Origin: Actinoallomurus soli
Lineage (GTDB): Bacteria > Actinomycetota > Actinomycetes > Streptosporangiales > Streptosporangiaceae
DNA: 64,000 nucleotides
Assembly: GCF_024055715.1 (NCBI RefSeq)
Contig: NZ_JAMXMV010000012.1
Span: 124,001-188,000 of the forward strand
Reading direction: 5' to 3'
Of the stretch, positions 20,268 to 35,843 are shown piece after piece. Every line of letters begins with the position of its first letter. Position 1 is the stretch's first letter. Under the pieces are notes generated by a model, which made no database searches, was not told where the DNA came from, and worked only from the letters and a program-made list of their open reading frames with translations. Both the position numbers and the translations under genes were made by a program.

Positions 20268-22109
20268 ATGAGCCGGTGGGCGCTTCCGGGCTACACGGAG
20301 CTGCGTGAGCTCGGTTCAGGTGGTTTCGGACGGGTCGTGCTCGCCCGCGACGACGTGTCCGGCGGCATCGTCGCCATCAAGTACCTGTTCACCCGGCGGC
20401 TCGGTGGGGACGCCTTCCTGGCCGCGTTCCGGGACGAGGCCCGCGTCCTGGCGACGCTGGACAGCCCGTACGTCACCCGGCTGTACGGATACGTCGAGGA
20501 GGGCGACCACGCGGCGATCGTGATGGAGGCCGTCGACGGCGGGTCGCTTCGTGCCGTGCTCGACGAGCACGGCACGACGGCGCCGGAGGCGGCCCTGGCC
20601 GTGCTGAAGGGATCCCTGCTCGGGCTCGCCGCGGCGCACGCCGCCTCGGTCGTCCACCGCGACTACAAGCCCGCGAACGTCCTCGTCCGGCAGGACGGTC
20701 AGAGCAAGGTCGCCGACTTCGGCATCGCCGTACGCTCCGGGCGGCCGGGCGCGCCCGCCGGTACGCCGTCGTACATGGCGCCGGAGCAGTGGGAGGGCGG
20801 ACCGGCCGATCCTGCCACCGACGTCTACGCGGCGACCTGCGTCCTCTTCGAATGCGTCACCGGTCGCCGGCCGTACGAGGGAGACCAGGCGGAGCTTCGC
20901 CGGGCGCACGTGACCGCGCCGGTTCCGCTGGACGAGCTCCCCGAGCCGATGCGGCCGCTCGTCGCCCGCGGCATGGCCAAGGATCCGGCCGACCGGCCGC
21001 CCGGAGCGTCGGCCTTCGTGGCCGAACTCGAGGAGGCCGCCCGGGCGGCGTACGGCCCGGACTGGGAGCGCAACGGCTGGAAGCGTCTCGCCGAGGCCGT
21101 CGCGGGTCTCGCCGCGTTGCTGCCGCTGGCGCTCCTGCTCGGGGCCGCCACGGGCGGCGCCGGCGGGACGGCAACCGGCGCGGGCGGCGCGGGCGCGGGC
21201 GGCGCGGGCGCGGGCATCGCCGGCACGGGCGGATCCACCGGTCCCGCGGTGGGCGGAAGACTGCTCGGCAGGACGGGCGTCAAGGTCGGCGCCGGTGTCG
21301 GCGGAGCGATCGCCGCCGGCGTCATCGGCACGGTCGCCCTGCTGCCGCACGGCAGGGCCCACGAGCAACGGCCCGCGCCGGTGGCCGCGCGGACGCCGTT
21401 CACCATCTCGTACGGCTCGGTGGAGCGGGCCTTCACCCGCCCGGCGCTCACCGTGGAGGGCCGGTACGTCCGCGTCGGCGGGCTGCCGGATCCCACGCTC
21501 GAGCAGGCGGTCGACCGGACCCTGCGGCTGCCCCTCGACCAGCAGCTGAAGCGGTACGAGAGTGCCCGCCAGTCGGACGGCGCGACGGCGGGACATCCTC
21601 GGGTCACCACCACCATCGAGATCGGACTGGGCGGCCCCCGGCTGCTGTCGGCCCGGTACCGCTTCACCGCCCACGGGGCGCCCCTGACGCCATTCGACTC
21701 GGGAGGCTCGCGGGCGGTGACCGTGGACCTGGTCACGGGACGCCGGCTTAGAGCGAGGGACCTCCTGCGCGACGCGGTGTTCACCCGGTCCGGCCTGAAG
21801 GACCTCGAACGGCGGATCGGCGCGGCGGCCCCCGGCGGGGCGCTCTGCGGCGGGGAGCCAAAGATCGATTCCATCGCCCTCCGCCCGGAGGCGATCGACA
21901 CCGATGACAAGGACGAGCGGGCGCTGGACCTGATGCCGACGAAGGACGGGATCGAGTTCGACGTCGTGCCGCCCCTGCTCGGTTATGTCTGGGCGTGCGC
22001 CGACGCCGTCGTCACGGTGCCGTACGACCGGATCTCCGACCTCGTACGGCCGGAGATCCTCGCGCTCATCCGGGCGTCCGCCGCGTCGCCCGCGCCCTCG
22101 CCGTCATGA
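20268..22109 (+). CDS. Receptor-like serine/threonine protein kinase with extracellular RsiV/DUF3298-like domain
   Basis: 613 residues. The kinase domain covers residues 8-265: Gly loop GSGGFGRVV (17-25), Lys38, HRDYKPAN (130-137), DFG (150-152), APE in YMAPEQW. A hydrophobic segment near 290-305 is followed by a Gly/Ala tandem-repeat linker (GGAGAGGAGAG) and a second hydrophobic stretch, then an outer domain (about 385-600). That domain has an RsiV/DUF3298-like order: paired strands, [47 protein letters not shown] at 20268 has GAGGAG 5 bases upstream. Its end overlaps the convergent gene by 6 bases. Ligand unknown. Confidence 0.88.
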
Positions 22110-22403
22110 GTCCGCGCGCAGGTGACGCTCGATCGTCTCGACCTTGCTCGTCAGCCCGTCCGTGACGCCCTCGCGGATGTCGGCCTTGAGGACCAGGCTG
22201 ACCCGCGGGCTGTGGGCGGAGACCGCCTCGACGGCGCGCTTCACCACGTCCATGACCTCGTCCCACTCGCCCTCGACGCTCGTGAACATGGCGTCCGTAC
22301 GGTTGGGCAGGCCGCTCTCCCGCACCACGCGTACCGCCTCGGCGACGGACTCCCCCACGGACTCGCCGACGCCCAGCGGTGTGATCGAGAAAGCGATGAT
22401 CAT
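22104..22403 (-). CDS. MTH1187/YkoF-type small protein (thiamine-binding-like, DUF77)
   Basis: 99 residues, the full length of this family. It begins [20 protein letters not shown] and ends with the [20 protein letters not shown] region typical of the fold, which forms tetramers and in some relatives binds thiamine-like ligands. The ATG overlaps the stop of the NUDIX gene in ATGA. It is the last gene of the long minus-strand operon that starts near 34.5 kb. The cellular role is uncertain. Confidence 0.85.
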
Positions 22404-22810
22404 GAAGACTCCTTGAGATGCTCGCGTACGGCTTCGACGACGGGGAGGTCCGCCGGCAGCCACGGGACGTCGAACAGCTCCGCCGCGGTCAGCCAGCGCA
22501 GTGCGGAGTGTTCCCGGGCCTCCGGTTCGCCGCGGACGATCGCGGCCGTCCAGACCCGCATCACGAGTCCATTGTGCAGCGGGCAGTCCTGCCCGACGCG
22601 GGCGCCCACCGTCACGTCGACCCCGAGTTCCTCGCGGCATTCGCGCACGAGTGCGTCCTGCTCGGTCTCCTCGGGTTCGACCTTGCCGCCGGGGAACTCC
22701 CACCCGCCGGCGAGTTCCGGCGGGTCGGCGCGCTGCGCCGCCAGGAGCCGTCCCCGGTGGATGATCACCGCTCCCACCACCAGGGACGGTCCCGTTCTCG
22801 CTGTTTCCAC
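22400..22810 (-). CDS. NUDIX hydrolase, MutT-like
   Basis: 136 residues. The Nudix box is complete: Gly42, Glu48, then Arg56-Glu57 and Glu60-Glu61 with Gly63, within [20 protein letters not shown] and ELGV. The GGWEFPGGK entry is typical of 8-oxo-dGTP diphosphatases that cleanse oxidised nucleotides, but substrate specificity is inferred. GTG at 22810 directly abuts the stop of the peptidoglycan hydrolase gene (22811), so it must be co-expressed with the secretion operon. The end overlaps the next gene by four bases. Confidence 0.88.
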
Positions 22811-23950
22811 TCAGAGCCTCTTGGTCGGGCCGTTGTGGCCGTTGTGCGCGGTCGGGCGGGTGAAGCCGACGGCGCCACCGGGATAGGTCTTGTAGTTCTG
22901 GAACTTGACGACGTCGCCGGTGTGGGGTGCGACGATCATGATGCCCTTCTCCGGGTTGTAGACCGTGCCGACGTGCCCCGGACCGGTATGTCCCGGCAGG
23001 TACTCGAAGAAAACGAGGTCCCCCGGCTGCTCCTGCCCACGGGGTACCGACGCCCCCCACCAGTACTGATCGTCCGAGAGACGGGGAATGGTGACGCCGG
23101 CGCTCCGGTACGCGGACATCGTCAGTCCGGAACAGTCGAAGCTGTTCGGCCCGGTCGCGCCATAGACATAGGGCTTGCCCAACTGCGCCTTTTCATAGGC
23201 GATGACCTTCGCGGCCACCGCGCTCGGGGCCACCGGGGCGCCGTTCATATCGGCACAGATCGGGCCGCTGGCCTGGACCACGTTGAAGTTCCCCGCAGCG
23301 TACTTCTGCGCCCAGGACAGCACGTTGTTCACGTAGGACGTCAGGTGGTTGTACGAGAAGATGGCATCGCGCATCCGCTGCGGCGCGCCGCTGGCCTTCA
23401 GGTAGCGTGCGGCGGCGGGAATGGCGTCGGCCGGGTCGTAACGGCTCTTCTTCCCGTCGCCGTCGCCGTCCACCCCGTACGTCGCCCAGGTGCCGGGGAT
23501 GAACTGCATCGGCCCTCCGGCGTGGGCGTAGTTCTCACCGCTGGTGACGCCGGGGGCCTTGAGCTGACCGTGATGGGTCTCGACGTAGCCGATGCCCGCG
23601 AGGACGTTCCACGGGATGCCGTACTGTTGACCGGCCTTCTTGTACAGCGCCAGGTAGTTGGCCGGGATGCCGCTGGCGTCGCCGGACTGCTGGGGCTGTG
23701 AGGCCGCCCCGGAGGTGTCCGTGCAGTTCCCGCCGCCGGTCGCGTGCTGGTAGAAGTCGTTGGCACCGAAGAACAGCGGAATGGCCACCAGGCTCATGAA
23801 GAACAGCGCCGCGGCGCCTCCGGCGATGATGATCGGCAGCCGGACCGCCCCCCGGTCCGACCGTGTGAAATGAAGAAGAGAGATAACGCGACGGCCGTCG
23901 TTCCGTCCCCCCAAGTCGACGCCGAGCCGCAGGTGCCGGCGAAGCTTCAT
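22811..23950 (-). CDS. Bifunctional peptidoglycan hydrolase: lytic transglycosylase plus NlpC/P60 (TcpG/Orf14-like)
   Basis: 379 residues. A single membrane anchor (about 38-62) puts the rest outside. The transglycosylase domain (about 95-215) has the catalytic Glu124 in [10 protein letters not shown] and the [10 protein letters not shown] motif. The NlpC/P60 domain (about 245-365) has Cys273 in DCSGL, His326 in GHVG and His343 in APHTGD. Such two-domain enzymes open the cell wall for type IV secretion in Gram-positive bacteria (Tn916 Orf14, pCW3 TcpG). ATG at 23950 is preceded by AGGAAAGGG. It is seventh in the secretion operon counting from the TcpC-like gene, eighth if the small gene at 29514 is real. 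Confidence 0.92.
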
Positions 23951-23960
23951 CCCTTTCCTT

Positions 23961-24593
23961 TCACTTGTCACCAACGTTGGCCTGGTCGAAGGCGTAGACG
24001 ACCCAGCCTCCACCGGACCTCGTCACCGTGACGGCGTACTGCTCGGGGCTGTCGCCGGGGGCACTCCCTCCCTTGCTGACGTGCCGGGTGCCGGTGACGA
24101 GAAAGATGAACTGGTCCTTTTCCATGTCGCGGAGAGAGTCCAGATGCGCGTCGGAGGTCGAGACCTCCTTGTCCTGCCTGCGCTGGTCGAGCAGGCCCGG
24201 CGCCGATGAGTCGCGCTGCAGCTGGGCCGCCAGGTCACTGGTCACCAGGCCCTGCATGCGCGCGAGATAGGCGCTCGGCTGCTCGTCGTAGCGGTAGGTG
24301 CCGTAGGCGATGACGAAGCGACGGGCGACGTCCGCCGCCGCGCTGAAGTCCTTCTGCGTGAACGGCAGCAGCGAGTAGATGTCGTAGGTGCCCCCGCTCG
24401 GCGGCGGACCGGTCAGCCCGGGAGCGGTGAACGAGGGCGCGGACGGCGACGGAGCGGCGACCGGGCCGCTCCGCTGCGCCGAACCCTTGTGCCTGCCGCT
24501 CCCGGTGCCGATGGTCAGGAGCACCCCCGCCCCGGCGAGGAGCACCACCAGCGCGGCGAACAGGAACTTGCGCTGGCGATCGGTCAGGTCCAT
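23961..24593 (-). CDS. Accessory membrane protein of the secretion operon, function unknown
   Basis: 210 residues. One N-terminal membrane segment (about 9-30) is followed by a Pro/Ser linker (40-70) and an extracytoplasmic domain from DIYSLLPFTQKDFSAAADVA to the end. The pattern of one anchor plus a small NTF2-like alpha/beta domain (FVIAYGTYRYDEQPSAYLARM to GGGWVVYAFDQANVG) resembles TcpC/VirB8-type assembly proteins. This assignment is by architecture only. It sits between the VirB6-like and hydrolase genes, with gaps of 7 and 10 bases. Confidence 0.75.
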   Translation of the reverse strand: MDLTDRQRKFLFAALVVLLAGAGVLLTIGTGSGRHKGSAQRSGPVAAPSPSAPSFTAPGLTGPPPSGGTYDIYSLLPFTQKDFSAAADVARRFVIAYGTYRYDEQPSAYLARMQGLVTSDLAAQLQRDSSAPGLLDQRRQDKEVSTSDAHLDSLRDMEKDQFIFLVTGTRHVSKGGSAPGDSPEQYAVTVTRSGGGWVVYAFDQANVGDK

Positions 24594-24600
24594 CGGCCCC

Positions 24601-26976
24601 TCATTGCTCGTCGCTCTCTTCGCGCTTGACCGGGCGCAGCCAGAACGGCATGGCCGGACCGTCCTGGCGTGACTTGTCCGACCACAGCGGCGGCGGCGCC
24701 TTGCCCTCCGAGCGGGTCTCCTCGCGCCTTCTGGCCGGGGACGCGGGGTCGGGCCTCGCTCCCGAGGCTCCTCCGCGTGCCGCAGGGCTCTTCTTCGAAC
24801 CGCCCGCGTCGGGTCGCGGAGTCGTACGGCCACCTGATCCGCCGCCGAACCAGCTCCGGCCGCCGCCGGAGCCACCGCCGCCGGTGGCAGCGCCGCCCTT
24901 CTCGCCGCCGCCCGTACGGCCGCGGCCTCCGCTCTCACCGCCACCGGCCGGCCGGCGAGGCGGTGTGCGGGTGCCGGATCCCTGGCCCTCGCTCGTCTTG
25001 CCGCCGGCGCCCCAGCTGGGTCCGGTGGGCGCGGAAGGCGGTCGCGCGCCGCCTCCGGCGGCACTCGGCCGGTGTTCCTCACGCGAGGGTGCGTCGAGCG
25101 GCGCCCGAGGAGCCGGCGGGCGGGCCGTGCCGCCCGATCCGGACGGACGCGGGCTCCACAGGCCACCGCCGTTCGCCCGCGCGGCCGGCGCCGCGGCCTG
25201 CGCGCGAGGCGACAGGTTCAGCGGAGGGGCGCTGCCCCGCGCCGCCCCGGCCGCCTTCGCCGCGAGTTGCGCGGCGCGTCCACGCCGGTCGGAGGCGCCG
25301 ACCACTTCGCGGCCCGCCGTCTCGAAGTCGGCCGCGTCGTCCCCCCTGAGGGTCGGAGCGCCGGCCAGAGCACCGGAGTCGCGCTTGCCGCCCCAGCGGC
25401 CGAGCCGGTAACCCGCGGCACCGGGGATGGCGGCGGTCGCGATCGCGGTCGTCCGCTTCCGCGTCTCCCGGACCGCCATGTCGACCTCCTGCTCGCCCTT
25501 GCGGGAGCCGACGGCGGAGTAGCCGACCGCCGCGAACAGGTGCTGGAACGGTTTCCGGTAGACGAAGGCCGCCAGCGTGACGAGGGAGATCAGCAGGATC
25601 TGCAGGCCCCACGGCAGGCTCTCGGCCATGACCAGGCCGTAGCACCACAGCAGGAGCGCCAGCACTCCGATCAACGCCGCCTGCTTCAACAGGGTCGACA
25701 GAAGCAGCTCGAACCAGCGGACCGCGATGACGCGGCCGATGCCCGGATGGATGCCGATGCCCAGGAAGATCGGCCCCGCGACGAGCAGCAGCAGGAAGGA
25801 GATCTTCAGGATGATCAGCATCACCGAGACGATCAGCACGAGCAGGCCCGCGACCAGGGCCGCGAGCAGGGCGCCGAAGCCGACCGCCAGACGCGACTGC
25901 CAGTCCTTGCCCTGGAACAGGGAGTACGCGCCGGGATAGTTGTCCTTGATGTTCTTGGTCACGCCCTTGTAGGTGTCGGCCTTCTTCCCGAGATCGACCT
26001 TCTGCCCATTCGTGCTCTCGGAGAGATCGACCGCCTGGGAGGCCAGGAGCGTGGCCGCGTTGTCCTGGACGATCTTGGCCTTCGGGTCGTCGGTCCCGAA
26101 CTCGCCCATCAGCCAGGGTTTGCAGACGAGCGTCACCCAGAGACCGTTGGCGTTACGGGTGACGGCGTCGTTCGTGACCGGCTGCGGCGGCTTCCCCTCC
26201 TTCTGCGGGATGCACGTCGTGCTGTCGGCGTCGCTCTGTGGAAGAGCCGCGTTGAAGGCCGCGGTCGCCCCGTTGGAGACCTTCGTGCCCAGCGTCGTGA
26301 AGTCGCCGGGTCGGCCGATCAACCAGATCAGCGCGACCATCGCCAGCACCATCCAGATGGTGCCTTCCGCGACCCGGCTGGCCCGCCGGCGGATCAGCCC
26401 CCACCAGGCCAGCCACAGGGCGCCGAGGATGACCACCCACGACCAGTACTTGGCGCCGAAGGTGTTCCCCATCCCCCGGATGACGCCGTCGACCGTCTTC
26501 TTCAGCCATCCGAGGAGCGACTCGGACGCCGCCGCCTGGTAGATGGTGATCGTCGTCCGGTCGATGGCCTGCGCGAAGACGAAGACGGTGTTCGCGATGT
26601 TGTTGCCGATCATCGCGGGCATGTCGGAACAGCCCATGTCCACCGCGTGCCACGACTGACCGCGCGTGCCGTACCGGTCGTAGTACGTGAGCTGATCCGG
26701 CGCGTCCTTCGCCGTCTTCTTCAGCTGGTCGCTCGGGTAGTTCGGCGGCTTGACCATGCCGTCGATGCCCGAACCGTACTGCTCCGGAGCCGGATGATCG
26801 GCAGGCGCGCAGGCGTCACTGGGGTTGGGACCAATGGGATCAGCACCCGCGATGCCCACCGGGCTGAGGATGAACACCGCCATGAGCATGAGGACGAGGA
26901 GCGACCGGCGTTTCCCCCGTGGAGTGCGGTTCGCCGGTTGTCGTCGTCGGCGGTGGCGGACGCCTGACACCCTCAT
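24601..26976 (-). CDS. VirB6/TcpH-like polytopic membrane channel protein
   Basis: 791 residues. A signal-like N-terminus (about 24-45) precedes an external region. Membrane segments lie near 172-192, 208-226, 368-390, 395-420, 430-452 and 458-476. The last 250 residues are Gly/Pro/Arg-rich and disordered, presumably cytoplasmic. Size and topology match Tn916 Orf15/TcpH, the channel subunit that contacts the VirB4 ATPase. ATG at 26976 overlaps the VirB4 stop by four bases, with GGAGG upstream. The sequence is too divergent for a firm family call by eye. Confidence 0.8.
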   Translation of the reverse strand: MRVSGVRHRRRRQPANRTPRGKRRSLLVLMLMAVFILSPVGIAGADPIGPNPSDACAPADHPAPEQYGSGIDGMVKPPNYPSDQLKKTAKDAPDQLTYYDRYGTRGQSWHAVDMGCSDMPAMIGNNIANTVFVFAQAIDRTTITIYQAAASESLLGWLKKTVDGVIRGMGNTFGAKYWSWVVILGALWLAWWGLIRRRASRVAEGTIWMVLAMVALIWLIGRPGDFTTLGTKVSNGATAAFNAALPQSDADSTTCIPQKEGKPPQPVTNDAVTRNANGLWVTLVCKPWLMGEFGTDDPKAKIVQDNAATLLASQAVDLSESTNGQKVDLGKKADTYKGVTKNIKDNYPGAYSLFQGKDWQSRLAVGFGALLAALVAGLLVLIVSVMLIILKISFLLLLVAGPIFLGIGIHPGIGRVIAVRWFELLLSTLLKQAALIGVLALLLWCYGLVMAESLPWGLQILLISLVTLAAFVYRKPFQHLFAAVGYSAVGSRKGEQEVDMAVRETRKRTTAIATAAIPGAAGYRLGRWGGKRDSGALAGAPTLRGDDAADFETAGREVVGASDRRGRAAQLAAKAAGAARGSAPPLNLSPRAQAAAPAARANGGGLWSPRPSGSGGTARPPAPRAPLDAPSREEHRPSAAGGGARPPSAPTGPSWGAGGKTSEGQGSGTRTPPRRPAGGGESGGRGRTGGGEKGGAATGGGGSGGGRSWFGGGSGGRTTPRPDAGGSKKSPAARGGASGARPDPASPARRREETRSEGKAPPPLWSDKSRQDGPAMPFWLRPVKREESDEQ

Positions 26977-29510
26977 CGGGGGACCTCCTGGGTGACCTCT
27001 GTGGCGGGGTCGCGGGGGGCGGTGGAGGGACGGGATGGTCGCTCGTTCCCACTATGCGGGTCCGGCGCCTGGCCCGCACTCATTTCGCCGGGCTTGGAGC
27101 GTGTCGGGTTGGTGTCGAGCCAGCGGAGGAGCTCCTCGGAGACGAGGTCCACGCCGATCCGGCCGGCGCGGCCGTCGAGGTCGCGGAAGATGCACTCGCC
27201 GTTGCCGAGGTTGCGCAGCACGGCGCGGTGCTCGTCGGAGTTCTCGACCCCGAGGAGGGCCATCACGTTGCCGACCTCGTTGCGCTCGGTCGAACGGAAC
27301 GAGTAGACGGACGAGAGGCAGTTCGTCACCTGCTCGTTCAGGAGGTCGCCGGCGTTCTGCGAGACGAGGATCAGGGCGGTGTTACGGGAACGGCCCATCC
27401 GGGAGACCTCCGGTATGAGCTTGGCGCCCTCGGGGGTCTGCGTGATCGCCCATGCCTCGTCGAGGAAGATCGTCTTCGGCAGATGGCGGTCGAGGCCGTG
27501 CATCAGACGGCGGGCGAACTGCGACACGAGGTACATCAGGGCGACCGAGAGCCGCTGCTCGTACGAGTAGTCCTCGCGGTTGATGGCGACGTCCGGCAGG
27601 GTCAGGCCGCCGAGCGTGAAGACCGTCGTCCAGCCCGCGGTGTCGATCCGCTCACCGCCGGACGGGTCGAAGCACAGGCGGGCGAGGCGCATCTCCGACA
27701 TCGAGCGCAGCACCGCGCCGAGGTTCTTCGACGCCGGGTCGTCCGACGCGTCGAGGTAGTCGACGACCTTGCCGAGTGAGGGCTGCGGCTGGTTGGCGAC
27801 CGCGCCGACCGCCTGGATCATGGCGGACTCGCGCTCCTCGGACATGCGCGGCAGCAGCAGGCGGAGCGTCTCCGTCGCCATGGTCTTCTTGGCCGCGAGG
27901 TCGTCGCCGAAGCTGAAGGGGTCGAGGAGGCCGGGTGCGGCGGACCCCAGCGGCAGCACGCGGGCGCGGCGGCCGCGCCGGCGCAGCAGTTCGACGAGGG
28001 ACTCGGCGTCGCCCTTCGGGTCGATGGCGGCGATCGTGACCCCGCGCAGCGCCATCTGGTACAGCAGCAGCAGCGCCAGGGTCGTCTTGCCACCGCCGGG
28101 CTCACCGGTGATCGCGACCGCGGTGGGGCGGTTGCGCGCGGCGGCGACGAGCGGGTCGAAGTGCACGATGGACCGGGCGCGGCCGAGCGTCTCCCCGATG
28201 TACGGGCCGACCCAGCCGGAGGAGGTGTCGTCCCGCCGGTCACCGAGGTCGACGGTCGCGGTGGGCATGCCGCCGGCGATCGTCCGCAGCGGCTGCCGCT
28301 GGGCGTACGCGTTGACACGGATCCGGTCGCCGGGCAGCGACTCGCAGAACAGCGAGAACTGGTCGCCGGTCGAGCAGACGATGTCGATGCCGAGGTCGCG
28401 GTAGTGCTCGACGACCGCGTCGACGCGCTGCTGCAGGAGCTCCTCGGTCGGGGCGGACACGATGAGCCGGTGCCAGCCGTAGACGAAGGGCAGCCGCTCC
28501 TTGGTGATGCCGTGCTCCAGCATGCGGGCGGCGTCGATCTGCTCGGCGAGCGCGATGGGCGCCTCGGCGCCCGCCTCACGGATGTGCTGGTCCATGTCGC
28601 GGGCGTGGGCGAGCTTACGGGAGACGTCCTTGGACGCCTTGGCCGGCGGAACGAGCTTCATCCGCGCCGACACCTCCACCGGGAAGGGCAGGGCGTCGGC
28701 GAAGTGCATCCACGGCTCACCGTCCGGGAACGGCATCAGGTCCGGGAATCGGGCGAACGACAGGTACGCGACGTACGACGAGCCGTCCGGCTGCTCCATC
28801 CGGAGGTTGGACCGGCCGTTGACGATCGTGCCCTCGACGAGGCTCTCGATCTCGCCGGCGCCCCAGGTGCGGCGCGGGGTGGCCGAGGGCGGCGGGTCGG
28901 TCAGGGCGCCGCTGGCCGCGTGCTGGAACAGCCAGGCGATCTCCGTCGACGACGCGTGCCGGGCGTACAGGGCGCTGCCGCCGAGGGAGCGGCCGAGCCG
29001 CTCGGCCTGCTCGGTCCAGCGCGTGATCTCCTTCTCCGGAATCGCCTCGTCGTGCAGCCCGAGGACCTCCTCGCTGCGCTTGTACAGGCCGAACAGCTGC
29101 TTGAAGGCGCCCCCGGACAGCTGAGCGCCCACGCCGCGCTGACCGAGGCGCACGCCGAGGTAGACCTCCTTGGTCCAGAAGTCCTTGGACCAGACGTGCG
29201 CGTACATCTCCTCGAGGTACTCACGCCAGCCCGGCCCCCCGTCCGAGGTCTCGTCGAGGGCGAGCGCCCACTCCGCAGCCGGATACGTACGGTGGGCGAT
29301 CCGCAGGTGGATCTCGGCGTCCTGCATGCGGATGCCGGCCATCGCGATGGTGATGTTGGTGGCGAGCGCCTCGCGCTCTTCGTTCGTCGTGAACTCGTAC
29401 GAGACGGTCGGCAGCCGGAAGTACGCCCACGCCGCGTTGTCGGTGAGGAGGATCCGATCGTCGAAATACCGTACGGCCAGCCGGCTGCGGGCCTTGGACG
29501 CCCTGCTCAT
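26973..29510 (-). CDS. VirB4/TcpF-like ATPase of a type IV secretion system
   Basis: 845 residues. The N-terminal half carries the VirB4-type domain. The C-terminal RecA-like domain has Walker A GEPGGGKTT (469-477), Walker B IFLDEAWAI (681-689) and the sensor segment ALILVSQNAGDLL (712-724). This is the core motor of conjugation-type secretion, homologous in role to Tn916 Orf16 and pCW3 TcpF. The ATG has GAGGAG 8 bases upstream, within the end of the preceding small gene. All ATPase motifs are intact, so the machine is probably active. Confidence 0.93.
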   Translation of the reverse strand: MSRASKARSRLAVRYFDDRILLTDNAAWAYFRLPTVSYEFTTNEEREALATNITIAMAGIRMQDAEIHLRIAHRTYPAAEWALALDETSDGGPGWREYLEEMYAHVWSKDFWTKEVYLGVRLGQRGVGAQLSGGAFKQLFGLYKRSEEVLGLHDEAIPEKEITRWTEQAERLGRSLGGSALYARHASSTEIAWLFQHAASGALTDPPPSATPRRTWGAGEIESLVEGTIVNGRSNLRMEQPDGSSYVAYLSFARFPDLMPFPDGEPWMHFADALPFPVEVSARMKLVPPAKASKDVSRKLAHARDMDQHIREAGAEAPIALAEQIDAARMLEHGITKERLPFVYGWHRLIVSAPTEELLQQRVDAVVEHYRDLGIDIVCSTGDQFSLFCESLPGDRIRVNAYAQRQPLRTIAGGMPTATVDLGDRRDDTSSGWVGPYIGETLGRARSIVHFDPLVAAARNRPTAVAITGEPGGGKTTLALLLLYQMALRGVTIAAIDPKGDAESLVELLRRRGRRARVLPLGSAAPGLLDPFSFGDDLAAKKTMATETLRLLLPRMSEERESAMIQAVGAVANQPQPSLGKVVDYLDASDDPASKNLGAVLRSMSEMRLARLCFDPSGGERIDTAGWTTVFTLGGLTLPDVAINREDYSYEQRLSVALMYLVSQFARRLMHGLDRHLPKTIFLDEAWAITQTPEGAKLIPEVSRMGRSRNTALILVSQNAGDLLNEQVTNCLSSVYSFRSTERNEVGNVMALLGVENSDEHRAVLRNLGNGECIFRDLDGRAGRIGVDLVSEELLRWLDTNPTRSKPGEMSAGQAPDPHSGNERPSRPSTAPRDPATEVTQEVPR

Positions 29511-29513
29511 CGG

Positions 29514-29714
29514 TTACTCCTCGTTCTTACTGAACACATGATCACGCACTGCCCGGCCAGCGCCCGCCGAAGAGACGGCCGCCGTCCCGGAGCCGCCGTC
29601 CGGCGGGCGCGGTACGCCGGGCACGCCGGTGCGGAGAACCACGCCGGACCGATCGGCGCGCCGTTCCAGGCGGGCGCACGCCGGACGGGCGTACGCCGGG
29701 CGGCGCCGGCTCAT
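29514..29714 (-). CDS. Small basic protein between the TcpE fusion and VirB4 genes, function unknown
   Basis: 66 residues, Arg-rich at the N-terminus (MSRRRPAYARP) and acidic at the C-terminus (SKNEE). No hydrophobic segment and no recognised family. Its reality is supported by context: GGAGG lies 7 bases before the ATG, the ATG overlaps the upstream stop as ATGA, and its stop is 3 bases before the VirB4 start. It may act mainly as a coupling ORF. A protein product is not proven. Confidence 0.6.
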   Translation of the reverse strand: MSRRRPAYARPACARLERRADRSGVVLRTGVPGVPRPPDGGSGTAAVSSAGAGRAVRDHVFSKNEE

Positions 29715-32700
29715 CGGGAGACCTCCTGCTGCGGGTAGCGCCCCGGCGTCTGCACGAGACCGCCCGCGACGACCCCGCCGAGCGCGATGTACGCCTTGCG
29801 GGTCGGGGCCCGCAGCGAACGCAGCTCATTGCGGGGTGCACGGTCGAGGCTGAGGTGGTCGTCCCAGGGGATGCGCACGAGCGCGCGGCAGCGTCCCCTG
29901 GCGACCGACTCGGCCTGCTCGACGTCGTCCATGCTGCGGCGGCTCACCCCGTTGATCACGGTGACGGCCCGGGAGCGCAGATCCTCGTAGCCGTGGCCGT
30001 CCAGCCACTCGAAGGTCATCGCCACCGCCCGCGGCGCGTCCGAACTCGCCGGCGCGACCAGCACGATCTGATCGGCGTACGGCAGGACCCGGGCGACCAC
30101 GGCGGCCGCGGCGTCCAGCAGCGTGATCGAGTAGAACCGGTCGAGGGTCCGCATCGCGAGCGCGTAGTCCCGGTCGTCGAGCGCCTGGACGGGGTTCTTA
30201 CCGGCTGCCACGACCTCCAGCCCGGACTTGGAGATGGAGGTGTACCGGCGCATCATCTGGTAGCCGGAGACCTGCTCGGCATGGGCGATCAGCGAGGTGA
30301 GCGTCTCCCGCGTCTCGGTCCGGGTGCGCCGGGCCATGGCGCCGGGGCCGGGGTTCACGTCGACCGCGACGATCCGGTCACCGCGGTGCTGGGCGAAGGT
30401 GTGCCCGAGCATGAGCGCGGTCACCGTCTGCCCGGCACCGCCGGTGCAGCCGAGCACGACGACGCGCCGGGCGCCCGCGAAGGCGGTCCGTACGCGCTGT
30501 TCGTAGTCGCCGTCGCCGTTGCCGCCGCCGCCGCCGCCCGTGAAGATGCGCCTGCGGCCGCGACCGTCGTCGCCGCGTCCCTCGTCCTCGTGGGTCACCT
30601 GGGGCATCGGTCCGGGCCGTACGGGTGAGGCCGGACCGGAGCGAACGGCGCGCGCCGGAGACTCCGGCGGCGCGGCGGCGGCCTCCGGCCGGCCCTGCCA
30701 GGACTGCTCCGCCCCCGGCCTGGGCACTGCCGGTGGCCGGGACACCGCCGGTGGCCGGGCCTGCCGGGCGGCCGGCACATGCGCGGGCCTCGTCGGCTGC
30801 GTCCGGGGCGGCTGAGCCGGCGACTCGTCGGGGGTCTGGGGCGAGCCGGTCCGCGGTGGTGTGGTGGGTGACGACGGATGCCCGGCCGCCGGGGCGCGCG
30901 GGGGCAGGGACGGCGTCGCCGGTCGCCCGGGGACGGGGGGCATCGCCGGACGGCCGGAGGCGGGCGGCGTGGCCGGGCGACCGGGCGCCGGCGGGGTCCA
31001 GCTCGGAGCCGGGGGTGCCGAATCACGGGCGGCGGCCGGCCGCGTCTCGTGCGAAGGCGCGGACTCCTCATCGTGGGAGCGGCCTCGGACGGGCGCGGCG
31101 GGCCGGTCCGGGCGGCCGGAGGACGCCTCGCGCGGTGCGGCGGAACCGGCGTCCGGTCGCGGAGCCGGGGCACGCCGCGACGGGGACGGCCACACGATCT
31201 GGTCGGTGCGGGCGTTGGCGATCGACTCTTCGTCGTCACCCGGCTCTGCCGCGTCCCGGTCGGCCGCCGGAGCGCGGTCCGCCGGGGGACGGCCGGCCGC
31301 CACACCCGAAGCCGCCGCCTCGGGTGCCGTCGTTTCGGAAGCCGTCGTTTCGGAAGCCGTCGTCTCGGCGGTCACCGCATCCGGAGCCTCGGTCTCGCGT
31401 TCGGGCGCGGCCTCGGCCGGCGGCCGTCCGGCGGCGGCAGCCGAACCCTCGTTCTCGGTCTGCGGCTCGGCGGAGCGCGCGGCCGGGGAGCCCCCGGCCG
31501 GTTTGGCGTGCCGCCCGTGCGGCAGCGGGATCACCGTCGCGGGGAACGGGCCTTCATCGGCCCGCCGCGGACCTGCCGGCCGATCCGGCCGGCCGTTCTC
31601 CCCCGGATCGGCGGAACCGCCGGTGGCCGCCGGCCGAGCAGCGGGCGGCTGAGCCGACGCGGGCCGACCAGCCGGTGGCTCAGCCGACGCAGGGCGAGCC
31701 GGCGCGGGATGCGTCGAGGGGGGTCGAGCAGCCGGTGGCTCGGCGGCCGGTCGCTCGGCGGGGGTGGTGCGGTCCGGCCACTCGGTGCCTTCTCGTCCGG
31801 AAGCGGGGGCGGACCAGGCGTCGGGATGCGTGACGGGCTGAGCGGGAGCCGCGTGCCTGCCGAGGGGGCCTGGAGGGCCTGACACCGCCGGCGTCGCGGG
31901 CGCGTCCGGGCGGGCGGCCATCTCCGAGCCCACGGGCGTCTCCGGACGACCCGGCATTTCCGGGCGGCCCGGCGTCTCCGGACGGCTCGGAGCCTCCGGA
32001 CCACCCGGCGTCTCCGAACGGCCCGGCGTGTCCGGTCGGCGGGGCTTGGTCGCGGGCACCTCCGATGGCCGTCCCAGCGTTGGCGGGACCGGCCGGGAGG
32101 TCGCGGCGGGGGCCTCCGGTTCGTGCGAGATGTTGCGCTGCCGCGCCGGCCGGCGCGACGCGTCACCCTCGCGGCCCTGCGCGGGGAGTGCGGTGTCGGG
32201 CCGGTTCTGGGCGGGCCGTCCGCGCTCGGCGACGCGCCGATCCGCGGTCTCGCCGTCGGGCGTCTCCGGGCCGGTGTCCCGTGCGGCGGGCATCGCGGGT
32301 ACGGCAGGGACCGCCGGGATGCCCGGCCTGGCGGGCAGACCGGGCCGGGCCGGGGTGGCGGGCACGGCGGGCGTGCTCGGTTTCGCCGGCGGCTCGGAGG
32401 CCGCGGGGAGGCCGGGGACGGACTGGGGGGCCGTCGGCTGGGGACGGGCCGGCCGTGGCGCGTCAGGCCGTGAGGAGGTCTCGGGGCGCACCTGCTGCGG
32501 CCGGGTCGGCTCCACGCGGGGCGCCGTGAGACGTCGTGCGCCGGACTCGGGTGACGGCACGACGCCGGTGCCGTCGTGGGGTGTCGGCTGCAGGCTCGGC
32601 GCCGGCGGACGCTGCGCGGTCGCGGGTCGGCGGGCCGCGCCGGAGGGCGCCTGGTCGGCGCCGGTTCCGGCGTACTCGAGGAACGGCGGCGCGGCCGCGG

Positions 32701-33154
32701 CCGGGGCCGCGGCGCGCTCGGGAGCGGGGGCGAGCTCGGCGGGTTCCTCCACGGTCCGCGCGACGTGCATCCGGTCGCCCGCCAGGTGGCCTCGCCGCCA
32801 CACGCGCCCGACGATCGCGACCTCGCCGGGCTCCCGGATCGGCGTGAGGCGTGCCCAGGTGCGTGCCTCGGTGAGGTAGCGGACCTGGGAGATCAGCAGC
32901 TCGGTGAGGCGTTTGCCCTCGATGACGGGCCGGGTGGCCAACCAGGTGAGCACGCCCGGCGGGACCAGGTAGACGACGTGCCAGGGCGCGTGGAACGGCA
33001 GGCCCGCCACCTGGAGCAGGATGATCCACGGCAGGAAGACACCGACGAACACCCCGATCTGCACCAACGGCAGCGGCATCGGAAGCCGTAGATCGTAGAG
33101 CTTGTACAGCCGCTTCTCGATGCGCCAGATATTGGTGTACGTAGGCAGATCCAC
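29711..33154 (-). CDS. TcpE-like membrane domain fused through a long disordered linker to a degenerate ParA/MinD ATPase domain
   Basis: 1147 residues. Residues 1-130 are TcpE/Tn916 Orf17-like: MDLPTYTNIWRIEKRLYK, two membrane segments (about 28-47 and 56-73). Residues 140-880 are Pro/Ala/Arg-rich and disordered with short tandem repeats. Residues 896-1147 have the ParA/MinD order, but the P-loop reads TGGAGQT: both the deviant-Walker signature lysine and the P-loop lysine are replaced (Thr, Gln). The domain is therefore probably a non-hydrolysing scaffold. It follows the TcpD-like gene by 61 bases. Confidence 0.88.
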   Translation of the reverse strand: MDLPTYTNIWRIEKRLYKLYDLRLPMPLPLVQIGVFVGVFLPWIILLQVAGLPFHAPWHVVYLVPPGVLTWLATRPVIEGKRLTELLISQVRYLTEARTWARLTPIREPGEVAIVGRVWRRGHLAGDRMHVARTVEEPAELAPAPERAAAPAAAAPPFLEYAGTGADQAPSGAARRPATAQRPPAPSLQPTPHDGTGVVPSPESGARRLTAPRVEPTRPQQVRPETSSRPDAPRPARPQPTAPQSVPGLPAASEPPAKPSTPAVPATPARPGLPARPGIPAVPAVPAMPAARDTGPETPDGETADRRVAERGRPAQNRPDTALPAQGREGDASRRPARQRNISHEPEAPAATSRPVPPTLGRPSEVPATKPRRPDTPGRSETPGGPEAPSRPETPGRPEMPGRPETPVGSEMAARPDAPATPAVSGPPGPLGRHAAPAQPVTHPDAWSAPASGREGTEWPDRTTPAERPAAEPPAARPPSTHPAPARPASAEPPAGRPASAQPPAARPAATGGSADPGENGRPDRPAGPRRADEGPFPATVIPLPHGRHAKPAGGSPAARSAEPQTENEGSAAAAGRPPAEAAPERETEAPDAVTAETTASETTASETTAPEAAASGVAAGRPPADRAPAADRDAAEPGDDEESIANARTDQIVWPSPSRRAPAPRPDAGSAAPREASSGRPDRPAAPVRGRSHDEESAPSHETRPAAARDSAPPAPSWTPPAPGRPATPPASGRPAMPPVPGRPATPSLPPRAPAAGHPSSPTTPPRTGSPQTPDESPAQPPRTQPTRPAHVPAARQARPPAVSRPPAVPRPGAEQSWQGRPEAAAAPPESPARAVRSGPASPVRPGPMPQVTHEDEGRGDDGRGRRRIFTGGGGGGNGDGDYEQRVRTAFAGARRVVVLGCTGGAGQTVTALMLGHTFAQHRGDRIVAVDVNPGPGAMARRTRTETRETLTSLIAHAEQVSGYQMMRRYTSISKSGLEVVAAGKNPVQALDDRDYALAMRTLDRFYSITLLDAAAAVVARVLPYADQIVLVAPASSDAPRAVAMTFEWLDGHGYEDLRSRAVTVINGVSRRSMDDVEQAESVARGRCRALVRIPWDDHLSLDRAPRNELRSLRAPTRKAYIALGGVVAGGLVQTPGRYPQQEVSR
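31326..31370. repeat. 15-bp tandem repeat inside the TcpE-fusion linker
   Basis: GCCGTCGTTTCGGAA occurs at 31326-31340 and 31341-31355, with a third copy diverged at its end (31356-31370). It encodes ETTAS/ETTAP repeats of the disordered linker. Repeat-length change would keep frame. Confidence 0.85.
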
Positions 33155-33215
33155 CCGGGCCCCACTCCCCTAATTGAGACCAGCCATGACTAGACCAGGA
33201 TGACCCCGGCCATGC

Positions 33216-33500
33216 TCAGGTCGTTTTGATGCCAAGGGCCGTCGCGATCGCCTTGGCCGTCGTCTCGATGATGTTGGGGACGTAGAAGATGACTCCAATG
33301 CCGATCGCCAGCAGGATGAATTGCACGAAGCGCGTGATCTCCCGCGTGAACAGGAAGAAGATCGCGACGATGGAGACGACGACCAGGAACAACGGCCCGA
33401 AGATGTCGCGCAGCCATTTGGCGAGATTGTCGGTGTCCAGGCCGTTGGCAGGCGCCGCCTCCACATGATGCGGCAGCATCGCCAGCATGTGTTGCATCAT
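33216..33500 (-). CDS. Small two-helix membrane protein (TcpD-like)
   Basis: 94 residues. The first hydrophobic helix is about 35-50 (FGPLFLVVVSIVAIFFLF), the second 58-80 (FVQFILLAIGIGVIFYVPN), with a short basic turn. Size, topology and position between the TcpC-like and TcpE-like genes match TcpD of the pCW3 locus, and also resemble VirB2/VirB3-type subunits. Two consecutive ATG codons at 33500/33497 follow AAGGAAGG. The assignment is by position and topology. Confidence 0.8.
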   Translation of the reverse strand: MMQHMLAMLPHHVEAAPANGLDTDNLAKWLRDIFGPLFLVVVSIVAIFFLFTREITRFVQFILLAIGIGVIFYVPNIIETTAKAIATALGIKTT

Positions 33501-33561
33501 CGGGCTGGCCTTCCTTGGTCGGGGAGTGAATCGTAGCGTTCGGGACGGCCCGGCCGGGACC

Positions 33562-34572
33562 TCACGAACCGGCCGGAAGTGTGGAACCTTGAATGTCCCT
33601 GACGAACCAATATGCGCCCTTCTTCACCATTGCGAGCTGGTAGGTCTGCTCGAGCGTGCCACCCGACGTCTTCGGCTGCCCGGCGGGGATCTGCCAGACG
33701 ACCGTCGCGAAGACGGTCCGGGAGGCGGCGTCGCCACGCGGGGCGGTGATGTCCTTCAGCTGGCCGAACGCGACGCTGTTGCCCAGCCCGGTGACGGGCG
33801 GGTCGGAGTACCGCTGGAGGGAACCGGCGTCACTGACCGCGTACGCCTTGAAGAAGTCCGTCAGCGGTTGCTGGAGGTCGTTCTCCAGCGAGGAGTCGCG
33901 GTCCTGGGCGGCTGGCGGGACCGACGCGGTCGCGGGCGGCGGCAGCGTGGCGGGGCGGCCGGTGATCGCCATCGCCCCGTCCTTCGCGTAGACCGGAACG
34001 GCCAACTGGAAGAGCCGGTTGTTCGCCCGTGCGAGGAGGGTCACGACGCCGTGCTCGGCATCGTCCGCGCGCACCGACGCGACGTGAGCGGACTGCAGCA
34101 CCGATTTGCCGGTGCCGTCCCAGCCCAGCTGCGGATCGATCCCACCGGAGATGAACTGGGCGAGTTGCTTCTGCCGGTCCTGGGCCGTGGCCTGGTCGTA
34201 ATTCAGATAGACCTCGGCGAATGACAGCGCGTAGGCCGAGGCCGCCGTCTCCGGGAACTTCGGCGCCGTCGTCTCGCCGGTCGTGGACGTGTTGGACCGG
34301 TCCTCGGTGAACCGCTCGAAGGGCGCGCGGACGCCGTTGACCAGCACGACGATGAGGAAGGCCCAGAGAATGACCCGTCCGACATAGATGAACCAGCGGC
34401 CGCCGGAACCGCCCCAACCACGGCGGTCACCGCCACCACCGCCGGAGCCGCCACGGCGTTTGCCGCGGCGTCCCTTCTCGTCCGGGGTGTCCCAAGGGTC
34501 GCCGGACGAGAATCCGCCCGGCGGGTAACCGGACGCACCGGCGTCTACAACGCCGGACGACCTGCGAGCCAT
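33562..34572 (-). CDS. TcpC-like bitopic assembly protein of the secretion apparatus
   Basis: About 336 residues. The cytoplasmic N-terminus is Gly/Arg-rich, followed by one membrane segment (about 60-82, WFIYVGRVILWAFLIVVLV) and an external region with two NTF2-like halves (about 110-210 and 220-335). This is the layout of TcpC/Tn916 Orf13, the VirB8 equivalent. The second of two adjacent ATGs (34572) is better spaced from GGAGG. First gene of the operon; a promoter candidate is at 34636-34663. Confidence 0.85.
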   Translation of the reverse strand: MARRSSGVVDAGASGYPPGGFSSGDPWDTPDEKGRRGKRRGGSGGGGGDRRGWGGSGGRWFIYVGRVILWAFLIVVLVNGVRAPFERFTEDRSNTSTTGETTAPKFPETAASAYALSFAEVYLNYDQATAQDRQKQLAQFISGGIDPQLGWDGTGKSVLQSAHVASVRADDAEHGVVTLLARANNRLFQLAVPVYAKDGAMAITGRPATLPPPATASVPPAAQDRDSSLENDLQQPLTDFFKAYAVSDAGSLQRYSDPPVTGLGNSVAFGQLKDITAPRGDAASRTVFATVVWQIPAGQPKTSGGTLEQTYQLAMVKKGAYWFVRDIQGSTLPAGS

Positions 34573-34635
34573 CATGCCTCCGCTCGCGCCTTCCCGGCCG
34601 GGATCGGCGCGCCGTCTATCCGTCTGGTCGAGTTC

Positions 34636-34763: not shown

Positions 34764-35843
<1,080 letters not shown>

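Follow-up and report, generated by a model that had tools for sequence, protein, structure and literature searches.

The subject of this analysis is a set of seven adjacent genes on the minus strand, at 22811-34575 of a 64,000-nucleotide window (by which we mean the whole stretch analyzed: contig NZ_JAMXMV010000012.1, positions 124,001 to 188,000, of Actinoallomurus soli), taken from an Actinoallomurus-like genome of 9.42 Mb in 60 contigs. Together these genes encode a type IV secretion system (T4SS) built around the ATPase VirB4 and resembling the machines of Tn916 and pCW3 (Table 1). Reading frames are intact throughout, and the gaps down the operon, from tcpC to the hydrolase gene, are 61, 61, 200, −4, 7, and 10 bp. 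The nearest named relative in our scan is A. spadix, with a VirB4 99% identical to that of the window.

Table 1. The machine and its immediate neighbors in the window, with family matches and remarks
Feature	Position	Strand	Evidence and remarks
TcpC-like protein (VirB8-type), 337 aa	33562..34575	-	PF12642 E=1.4e-22, above cut-off; heads the operon, with ychF 188 bp upstream
Small membrane protein, 94 aa	33216..33500	-	Matches below cut-off only: LptF_LptG 4.1e-6, TrbC/VirB2 0.0036; kept in 49/49 complete loci
TcpE (VirB3-like) + Pro/Ala-rich linker + C-terminal domain of predicted ParA/MinD fold, 1147 aa	29711..33154	-	PF12648 8.3e-25, above cut-off, residues 5-102
VirB4/TcpF ATPase, 845 aa	26973..29510	-	AAA_10 1.6e-64, above cut-off; NF052333 7.6e-74
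VirB6-like channel protein	24601..26976	-	PF04610 9.3e-9, above cut-off; NF046089 1.4e-17, below cut-off; 4 bp overlap with virB4
Membrane-anchored protein of predicted VirB8/NTF2 fold, 210 aa	23961..24593	-	Predicted fold; no meaningful family match
Lytic transglycosylase (SLT) + NlpC/P60 peptidoglycan hydrolase, TcpG/Orf14 type	22811..23950	-	PF00877 1.2e-18, PF01464 3.3e-8, both above cut-offs
ychF, upstream neighbor, not part of the machine	34764..35843	-	PF06071 7e-39
NUDIX hydrolase, not part of the machine	22400-22810	-	PF00293 8.7e-17
Thiamine-binding-family protein, not part of the machine	22104-22403	-	PF01910 9.8e-28

The gene set has the features of the MPF-FA family of T4SSs: a TcpF/VirB4-type ATPase, tcpE beside virB4, TcpC/VirB8 and VirB6, and an SLT/NlpC hydrolase within the operon, in an E-F-H-G gene order that is presumably that of Tn916 orf17-14. 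The best NCBIfam match of VirB4 is NF052333 (TcpF), at 249 bits and thus below that model's own cut-off of 1100; the protein carries intact GEPGGGKTT and IFLDEAW motifs, which we take to be its Walker A and Walker B, and residues G472, G474, K475, and E685 are invariant among 13 aligned VirB4s. For the 210-aa protein, an AlphaFold model (mean pLDDT 78.6) finds as its best PDB matches, with modest TM-scores, the VirB8 domain of PrgL (7aed, E=1.6e-5) and then TraH (5aiw, 1.6e-4), both proteins of Gram-positive conjugation plasmids. With this predicted VirB8/NTF2 fold, the machine would thus have two VirB8-like parts, TcpC and the 210-aa protein.

The initial annotation, made from the letters of the window, had named all of these components in this order on the minus strand, with intact VirB4 motifs, and the Pfam and NCBIfam matches (above cut-off for PF12642, PF12648, AAA_10, and PF04610) bear it out. 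Its extent of 22104..34572 covers the machine but begins too early, taking in the NUDIX gene and then the thiamine-binding-family gene that lie directly behind the hydrolase gene (gaps of 0 and −4 bp); the second of these shares a 6-bp end overlap, at window 22104-22109, with a convergent serine/threonine kinase gene (20268-22109). What it called an accessory anchor protein is indeed membrane-anchored, to which the structural model adds the VirB8/NTF2 fold, and its "TcpE-like fusion" does contain TcpE, joined to a long linker and a ParA/MinD-fold domain that it had missed.

In this fusion, the TcpE part is followed by a linker of approximately 770 residues (22% Pro, 19% Ala) and a C-terminal domain whose model (pLDDT 83.3, pTM 0.86) has ParA 3ea0 as its best PDB match (E=1.7e-10) and also matches MinD 1hyq (3.5e-8); by sequence, the domain gives only clan matches below cut-off (CbiA 0.003). 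The deviant Walker A motif of ParA/MinD proteins is KGGxGK[ST], with both lysines. The domain has the fold but not the motif: its P-loop reads GCTGGAGQT in the window, the usual form is GCTGGAGQ[TS], and the lysines of the loop are replaced in every locus read, with glutamine in place of the P-loop lysine in 81/81 loci (80 named and one other, a set used because many loci from the VirB4 scan are the same species twice). The altered motif also occurs in g3 genomes, among others (24 of 25 loci with a match, the 25th locus being cut), g3 being a genus that we take, from the VirB4 tree described below, for Nocardiopsis. Of the 49 complete loci, 46 have TcpE and the MinD-like domain in a single frame; in the other three, frames overlap within the linker. 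The ratio of nonsynonymous to synonymous substitution rates (dN/dS) of the domain, calculated between the window and three relatives only, is 0.008, 0.037, and 0.049, compared with 0.021, 0.033, and 0.067 for VirB4; the altered domain is about as constrained as the ATPase and thus is not decaying.

In the sampled genomes, the machine is a core locus of the order Streptosporangiales. A VirB4 match at E <= 0.001 was found in 199 of 200 genomes of the order (the total taken from the genome table) and a match at E <= 8.1e-267 in 197; the three exceptions belong to a single genus (2.3e-11, 8.0e-14, and none). No parts of the cluster were detected within 20 kb around ychF in two of these three genomes, and in one exception genome (L269) an RmuC-like gene (by eye) still adjoins ychF. 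Gene order and strand are the same in 49/49 complete loci, 32 of 81 loci having been dropped for lacking all eight modules, and every locus longer than 20 kb is complete. All 44 complete loci that reach ychF have it upstream on the same strand; in two g3 genomes (G030, G008), approximately 10-17 kb of other sequence separates it from the cluster. In a look for developmental promoter motifs upstream of tcpC, the sequence GACAC, which we take to be the core motif of WhiA, was counted 68 times in 37 loci; 50 shuffles gave a mean of 40.8 and a maximum of 55, a weak control because the stretches include coding sequence and the shuffle kept single-base content only.

Protein distances of VirB4, MinD, TcpE, and TcpC correlate with those of RmuC and YchF at r=0.904-0.955 across 43 loci (37 of the 80 named loci were dropped for want of one of the six compared genes in the stretch), with 0 of 999 permutations as high; the value for RmuC against YchF, 0.927, is comparable. 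Against A. spadix, dN/dS is 0.021 for VirB4, 0.008 for the MinD domain, and 0.078 for TcpE, alongside 0.037 for ychF. These comparisons show vertical descent of the machine under purifying selection. The earlier proposal of a vertically kept machine flanked on one side by ychF is supported on each count examined: presence in 197/200 genomes, a fixed ychF neighborhood with conserved order and strand, correlated distances, and strong constraint.

Matches beyond the order were also sought. Across the phylum, 18 of 396 genomes, our own included, gave one at 1e-20; in the class, with the family of the window left aside, 38 of 311 genomes sampled did so at 1e-10 (two candidates scored per genome in each case). 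Three loci from other classes (L207, L208, L209) have the set from VirB4 to the hydrolase with no match to the MinD profile, and the remaining out-of-order places examined by profile are partial or distant. Other VirB4-bearing regions were also encountered. One is another chromosomal T4SS-like cluster (L195:5719-13986, genome G648) encoding a TcpC-like protein of 400 aa, proteins of 107 and 252 aa, a VirB4 of 876 aa, and a 764-aa membrane protein. In family f93, 15 sampled genomes have VirB4 matches of about 1e-25 to 1e-28, one of them with a stronger match as well, and three of these regions were examined. Two Streptomyces-like loci (L210 and L211, genomes G392 and G803) encode a VirB4 of 1011-1014 aa with TcpC-, VirB6-, VirB8-fold-, and SLT-like matches, of which the VirB8-fold- and SLT-like ones lie on the opposite strand.

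By eye, the genes called in the window and in the 17 kb to either side include no integrase, relaxase, or coupling protein, as the initial annotation had already noted for the window itself. This reading used protein starts, and Pfam was run on the operon and ychF, the two genes behind the operon, and ten further genes of the window. There is also no tRNA gene in the window, and no convincing flanking repeat among six imperfect two-copy families; a 28-nt repeat pair (86%) at 21383 and 34321 was considered as att ends and rejected, its copies lying inside two genes and being taken as chance. With neither DNA-processing genes seen just outside the operon nor a patchy distribution, the locus is not an ordinary integrative and conjugative element (ICE).

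Genome-wide searches for motors and relaxases covered TrwC, PF02534, and PF01580. Our genome has no second VirB4 (the sole AAA_10 protein at E <= 0.001 is that of the locus), no PF02534 coupling protein (7 of 21 searched genomes have one), and no TrwC/MobF relaxase (4 of 21 have one), other relaxase families not having been searched. A dedicated coupling protein was also sought with that of a Nocardiopsis plasmid: with as many as six candidates scored per genome, 75 of the 200 genomes of the order have a homologue at 1e-10, and ours (six scored) has none. The 24 PF01580 matches of our genome, none on the contig of the window, fall in an FtsK-like open reading frame (ORF), in seven ORFs of 1338-1846 aa, and in 622-aa, 875-aa, and weak 262-aa frames, and by length and context they do not appear to be of the dedicated coupling-protein type. 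The seven long ORFs (G000:C2, C13, C33, C44, C48, C60) are probably EccC-type ATPases of type VII secretion systems, because of their length and repeated domains. The 622-aa frame lies within an apparent pSAM2-type element (by eye; L252, G000:C22:335000-353000) with GntR-like regulators, small membrane proteins, a TraB-like FtsK protein, and an integrase, and the 875-aa frame lies near a small WXG100-like gene (by eye). Elsewhere in the sample, a VirD4-like gene is paired with an M48-like peptidase gene (329 aa, by eye) in four genomes, two of them of the genus of the window (L284:12931-15407 of G024, L153, L155, L152; only a short stretch was seen in three). The G024 copy of the VirD4-like gene is 57-62% identical to those of the other three genomes, with the peptidase gene adjoining.

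Close relatives of the machine exist on plasmids. Three Nocardiopsis plasmid records (NZ_CP099838.1, NZ_CP080600.1, NZ_CP074136.1) encode a VirB4 71-75% identical to that of the window, and the two that we opened, NZ_CP099838.1 and NZ_CP080600.1, carry all eight modules in a rearranged order, with an unfused MinD that keeps the canonical KGGVGKTT and a hydrolase consisting of the SLT part only (by Pfam for NZ_CP099838.1 and by profile range for both). The whole gene table of NZ_CP099838.1 includes a MobF relaxase with a TrwC domain, a PF02534 coupling protein, and an integrase; the relaxase (L272:18634-25389) is a 2251-aa protein with primase (DnaG N-terminal, Toprim) and helicase-type domains, and the plasmid is typed as non-mobilizable. 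The same machine thus exists on a plasmid together with DNA-processing genes, and on the chromosome where those were not found. In the same plasmid collection, NZ_LT559118.1, an 11.85-Mb Nonomuraea gerenzanensis record, is evidently a chromosome.

In the VirB4 tree, a quick build with long outgroup branches, the plasmid copies fall inside the chromosomal family beside g3 (SH-aLRT 99). Identity gives the same g3 affinity for VirB4, TcpC, and the small membrane protein of both plasmids, and for VirB6 to G008. It fails for TcpE of one plasmid and for the MinD of either plasmid, which is no closer to g3 than to others. We considered the plasmid copies as the ancestral form and rejected this, the VirB4 tree nesting them among the g3 chromosomal copies. 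No single simple history fits both that tree and the canonical P-loop of the plasmid MinD.

No description of the locus was found in our searches of the open-licence literature. Like the MPF-FA machines of Tn916, ICEBs1, and pCW3 (tcp), it has TcpC, TcpE, a TcpF-type VirB4, VirB6, and an SLT/NlpC wall hydrolase; unlike them, it carries a MinD-like domain on its TcpE, has an additional protein of predicted VirB8 fold, and is near-universal and vertically inherited in its order, with no relaxase, coupling protein, or integrase found at the locus. A survey that identified 17 T4SS-based actinobacterial ICEs did so, in the text available, by requiring an integrase, a coupling protein, and a relaxase (PMC3218068), so that such criteria would pass over this locus. 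The T4SS loci without a nearby relaxase that Guglielmini et al. (2011, PMC3158045) called MOBless, and proposed to be often domesticated for protein transport, likewise keep T4SS genes with no relaxase seen beside them; the available text of that study reports few T4SSs in actinobacteria, whereas here the system is core to an order and our genome has no PF02534 protein. VirB machines that work without the coupling protein VirD4, among them Bordetella Ptl, Brucella VirB, Helicobacter ComB, and Bartonella Trw, include Gram-negative systems that export proteins (PMC12857230, in the part available). The likeness to our locus is a VirB machine without a coupling protein; those systems are Gram-negative, whereas the locus is of the single-membrane kind. 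Reports that we saw in part also describe one defective ICE, present in all Streptomyces strains studied and located around mid-chromosome (PMC9513070), and a VirB4-like gene that three Frankia strains conserve and whose highest similarity is to a Streptomyces gene (PMC2266912).

The closest functional precedent is cmdABCDEF (SCO4126-4131) of S. coelicolor, six chromosomal genes of which CmdB is VirB4-like (Xie et al. 2009, PMC2782261). In the available text of that study, deletion of cmdB or of all six genes delayed sporulation and gave branched hyphae and 6-8% anucleate spores compared with 0.1%, loss of cmdA by itself left sporulation apparently unchanged, and cmd deletion did not affect how an SLP2-derived plasmid was transferred (stated there without the data). 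We found a region near ppk in three Streptomyces-like genomes, with all six genes in two of the three stretches, that we infer to be cmd because the genes stand in line near ppk, the families match, and a P-loop lysine falls at position 90, the residue mutated in PMC2782261. By family, CmdC belongs to the SCO6880 family (7.7e-53), CmdB matches AAA_10 (5.6e-13), and CmdA has a weak match to the TraG C-terminus (6.6e-4, below cut-off).

Profile comparison aligned CmdB with the C-terminal (ATPase) half of VirB4 (hhalign 96.8%, E=2.6e-10). TcpC against CmdE, VirB6 against CmdD, and VirB4 against CmdC gave nothing significant, with Cmd alignments of two to three close rows in which weak homology could be missed. 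Identity of our locus with cmd is therefore rejected, detectable homology being confined to the ATPase domain. Both systems are chromosomal and conserved, cmd in a sporulating mycelial genus, and both combine a VirB4-like ATPase with membrane proteins; cmd also has an SLT gene about 5 kb away. The two are nevertheless different types of T4SS, cmd having a short 475-aa ATPase, an SCO6880-family CmdC, and a weakly TraG-like CmdA. No SCO6880-family protein was found at 1e-5 in our genome; within its family, 16 of the 34 genomes sampled have one (ten strong at E < 1e-140, six weak), a patchy spread that suggests mobile elements.

What follows concerns the function and substrate of the machine, which we infer from these data. 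The explanation that we favor, with moderate confidence, is that the locus encodes an MPF-FA machine like those of Tn916 and pCW3, kept vertically and domesticated as an envelope channel that VirB4 drives, and that it probably serves protein export in hyphal development. An ancestor of the Streptosporangiales would have acquired such a machine in its chromosome, close to ychF, and passed it on vertically. The step of which we are surest is that VirB3, VirB4, VirB6, and VirB8 homologues would assemble a channel while the wall hydrolase opens the peptidoglycan; next in certainty, VirB4 would be its only source of energy. With less certainty, the machine would not carry out ordinary conjugation, and with less still, it would export proteins during hyphal development, perhaps after Sec export, as substrates of the VirD4-less Ptl system are described to pass (PMC12857230). 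Least certain of all, the non-canonical MinD-like domain, held on a long flexible arm and anchored to the membrane through the VirB3-like part, might act as a positioning or docking module in place of a coupling protein. A bolder form, which we put forward tentatively and think rather doubtful, is that the order replaced the coupling protein with this catalytically altered domain fused to a VirB3 homologue, turning the machine into a developmental organelle, and that Streptomyces arrived independently at a similar outcome with cmd.

Several observations weigh against domestication for protein export. The steps of protein export and development draw on analogy, and cmd, the source of the developmental part, shares detectable homology with our locus in the VirB4 ATPase domain only. 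The plasmid kin sits with DNA-processing genes, which makes DNA transfer with help in trans possible, and the genome-wide searches were confined to the three families given above. Some parts of the machine are looser, with dN/dS up to 0.275 (TcpC against A. spadix) and 0.414 (the 210-aa protein against L034, whose stretch stops short of the first genes). Finally, G024 has its VirD4-like gene, of 488 aa, approximately 5 kb beyond the hydrolase gene, a closeness that we tentatively take as chance because the VirD4-like/peptidase pair recurs in three other genomes.

Among the alternatives, a channel for chromosome movement fares best, and we consider it unlikely. Here, chromosomal DNA would pass from one hyphal compartment or mycelium to another through the joint action of the envelope machine and an FtsK- or TraB-type pump for double-strand DNA. 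On SLP2, an FtsK/SpoIIIE gene stands directly before a transglycosylase-C40 peptidase gene, with a gene for an ATP/GTP-binding protein a few genes on; our genome has an FtsK-like ORF, and the anucleate spores of cmd mutants would fit. However, no FtsK-type gene lies beside the operon, transfer of the SLP2-derived plasmid was reported as unaffected by cmd deletion, and both SLP2 and cmd are other types of T4SS, making the argument one of analogy. We give rather little credence to the machine being a resident helper whose channel passes the DNA of incoming plasmids or ICEs, these supplying relaxase and coupling protein themselves. In its favor are the Nocardiopsis plasmids, with their closely related VirB4s and, in NZ_CP099838.1, MobF and PF02534 proteins, and the coupling-protein homologues in 75 genomes of the order; the plasmids, however, carry their own machine, and near-universality under a constraint like that on ychF would not be expected in genomes that, like ours, have no such coupling protein.

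DNA uptake in the manner of Helicobacter ComB seems to us very improbable: ComB is likewise described as lacking VirD4, with VirB4 its only ATPase (PMC12857230), which is the same minimal energy set, but no competence gene was noticed by eye beside the operon (neither ComEC nor natural competence was looked for). A decaying remnant of an integrated conjugative element is hardly credible and was rejected on constraint and synteny: a relaxase, coupling protein, and integrase were not seen at the locus and three of 49 complete loci have TcpE and MinD out of one frame, but the frames in the window are intact, dN/dS against A. spadix is 0.008-0.275, and order and strand are the same in all 49.

A core T4SS in a genome with no PF02534 coupling protein offers a good test of whether the T4SSs of Gram-positive bacteria have roles beyond DNA transfer, a question on which PMC12857230 (in the part available) names two exceptions, the S. 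suis 89K system and the T4SS of Patescibacteria. The VirB3-MinD fusion with its altered P-loop gives a handle on how place or substrate could be chosen without VirD4. If the order did replace its coupling protein in this way, and Streptomyces took an independent route with cmd, repeated domestication of conjugation machines would be a feature of multicellular actinobacteria.

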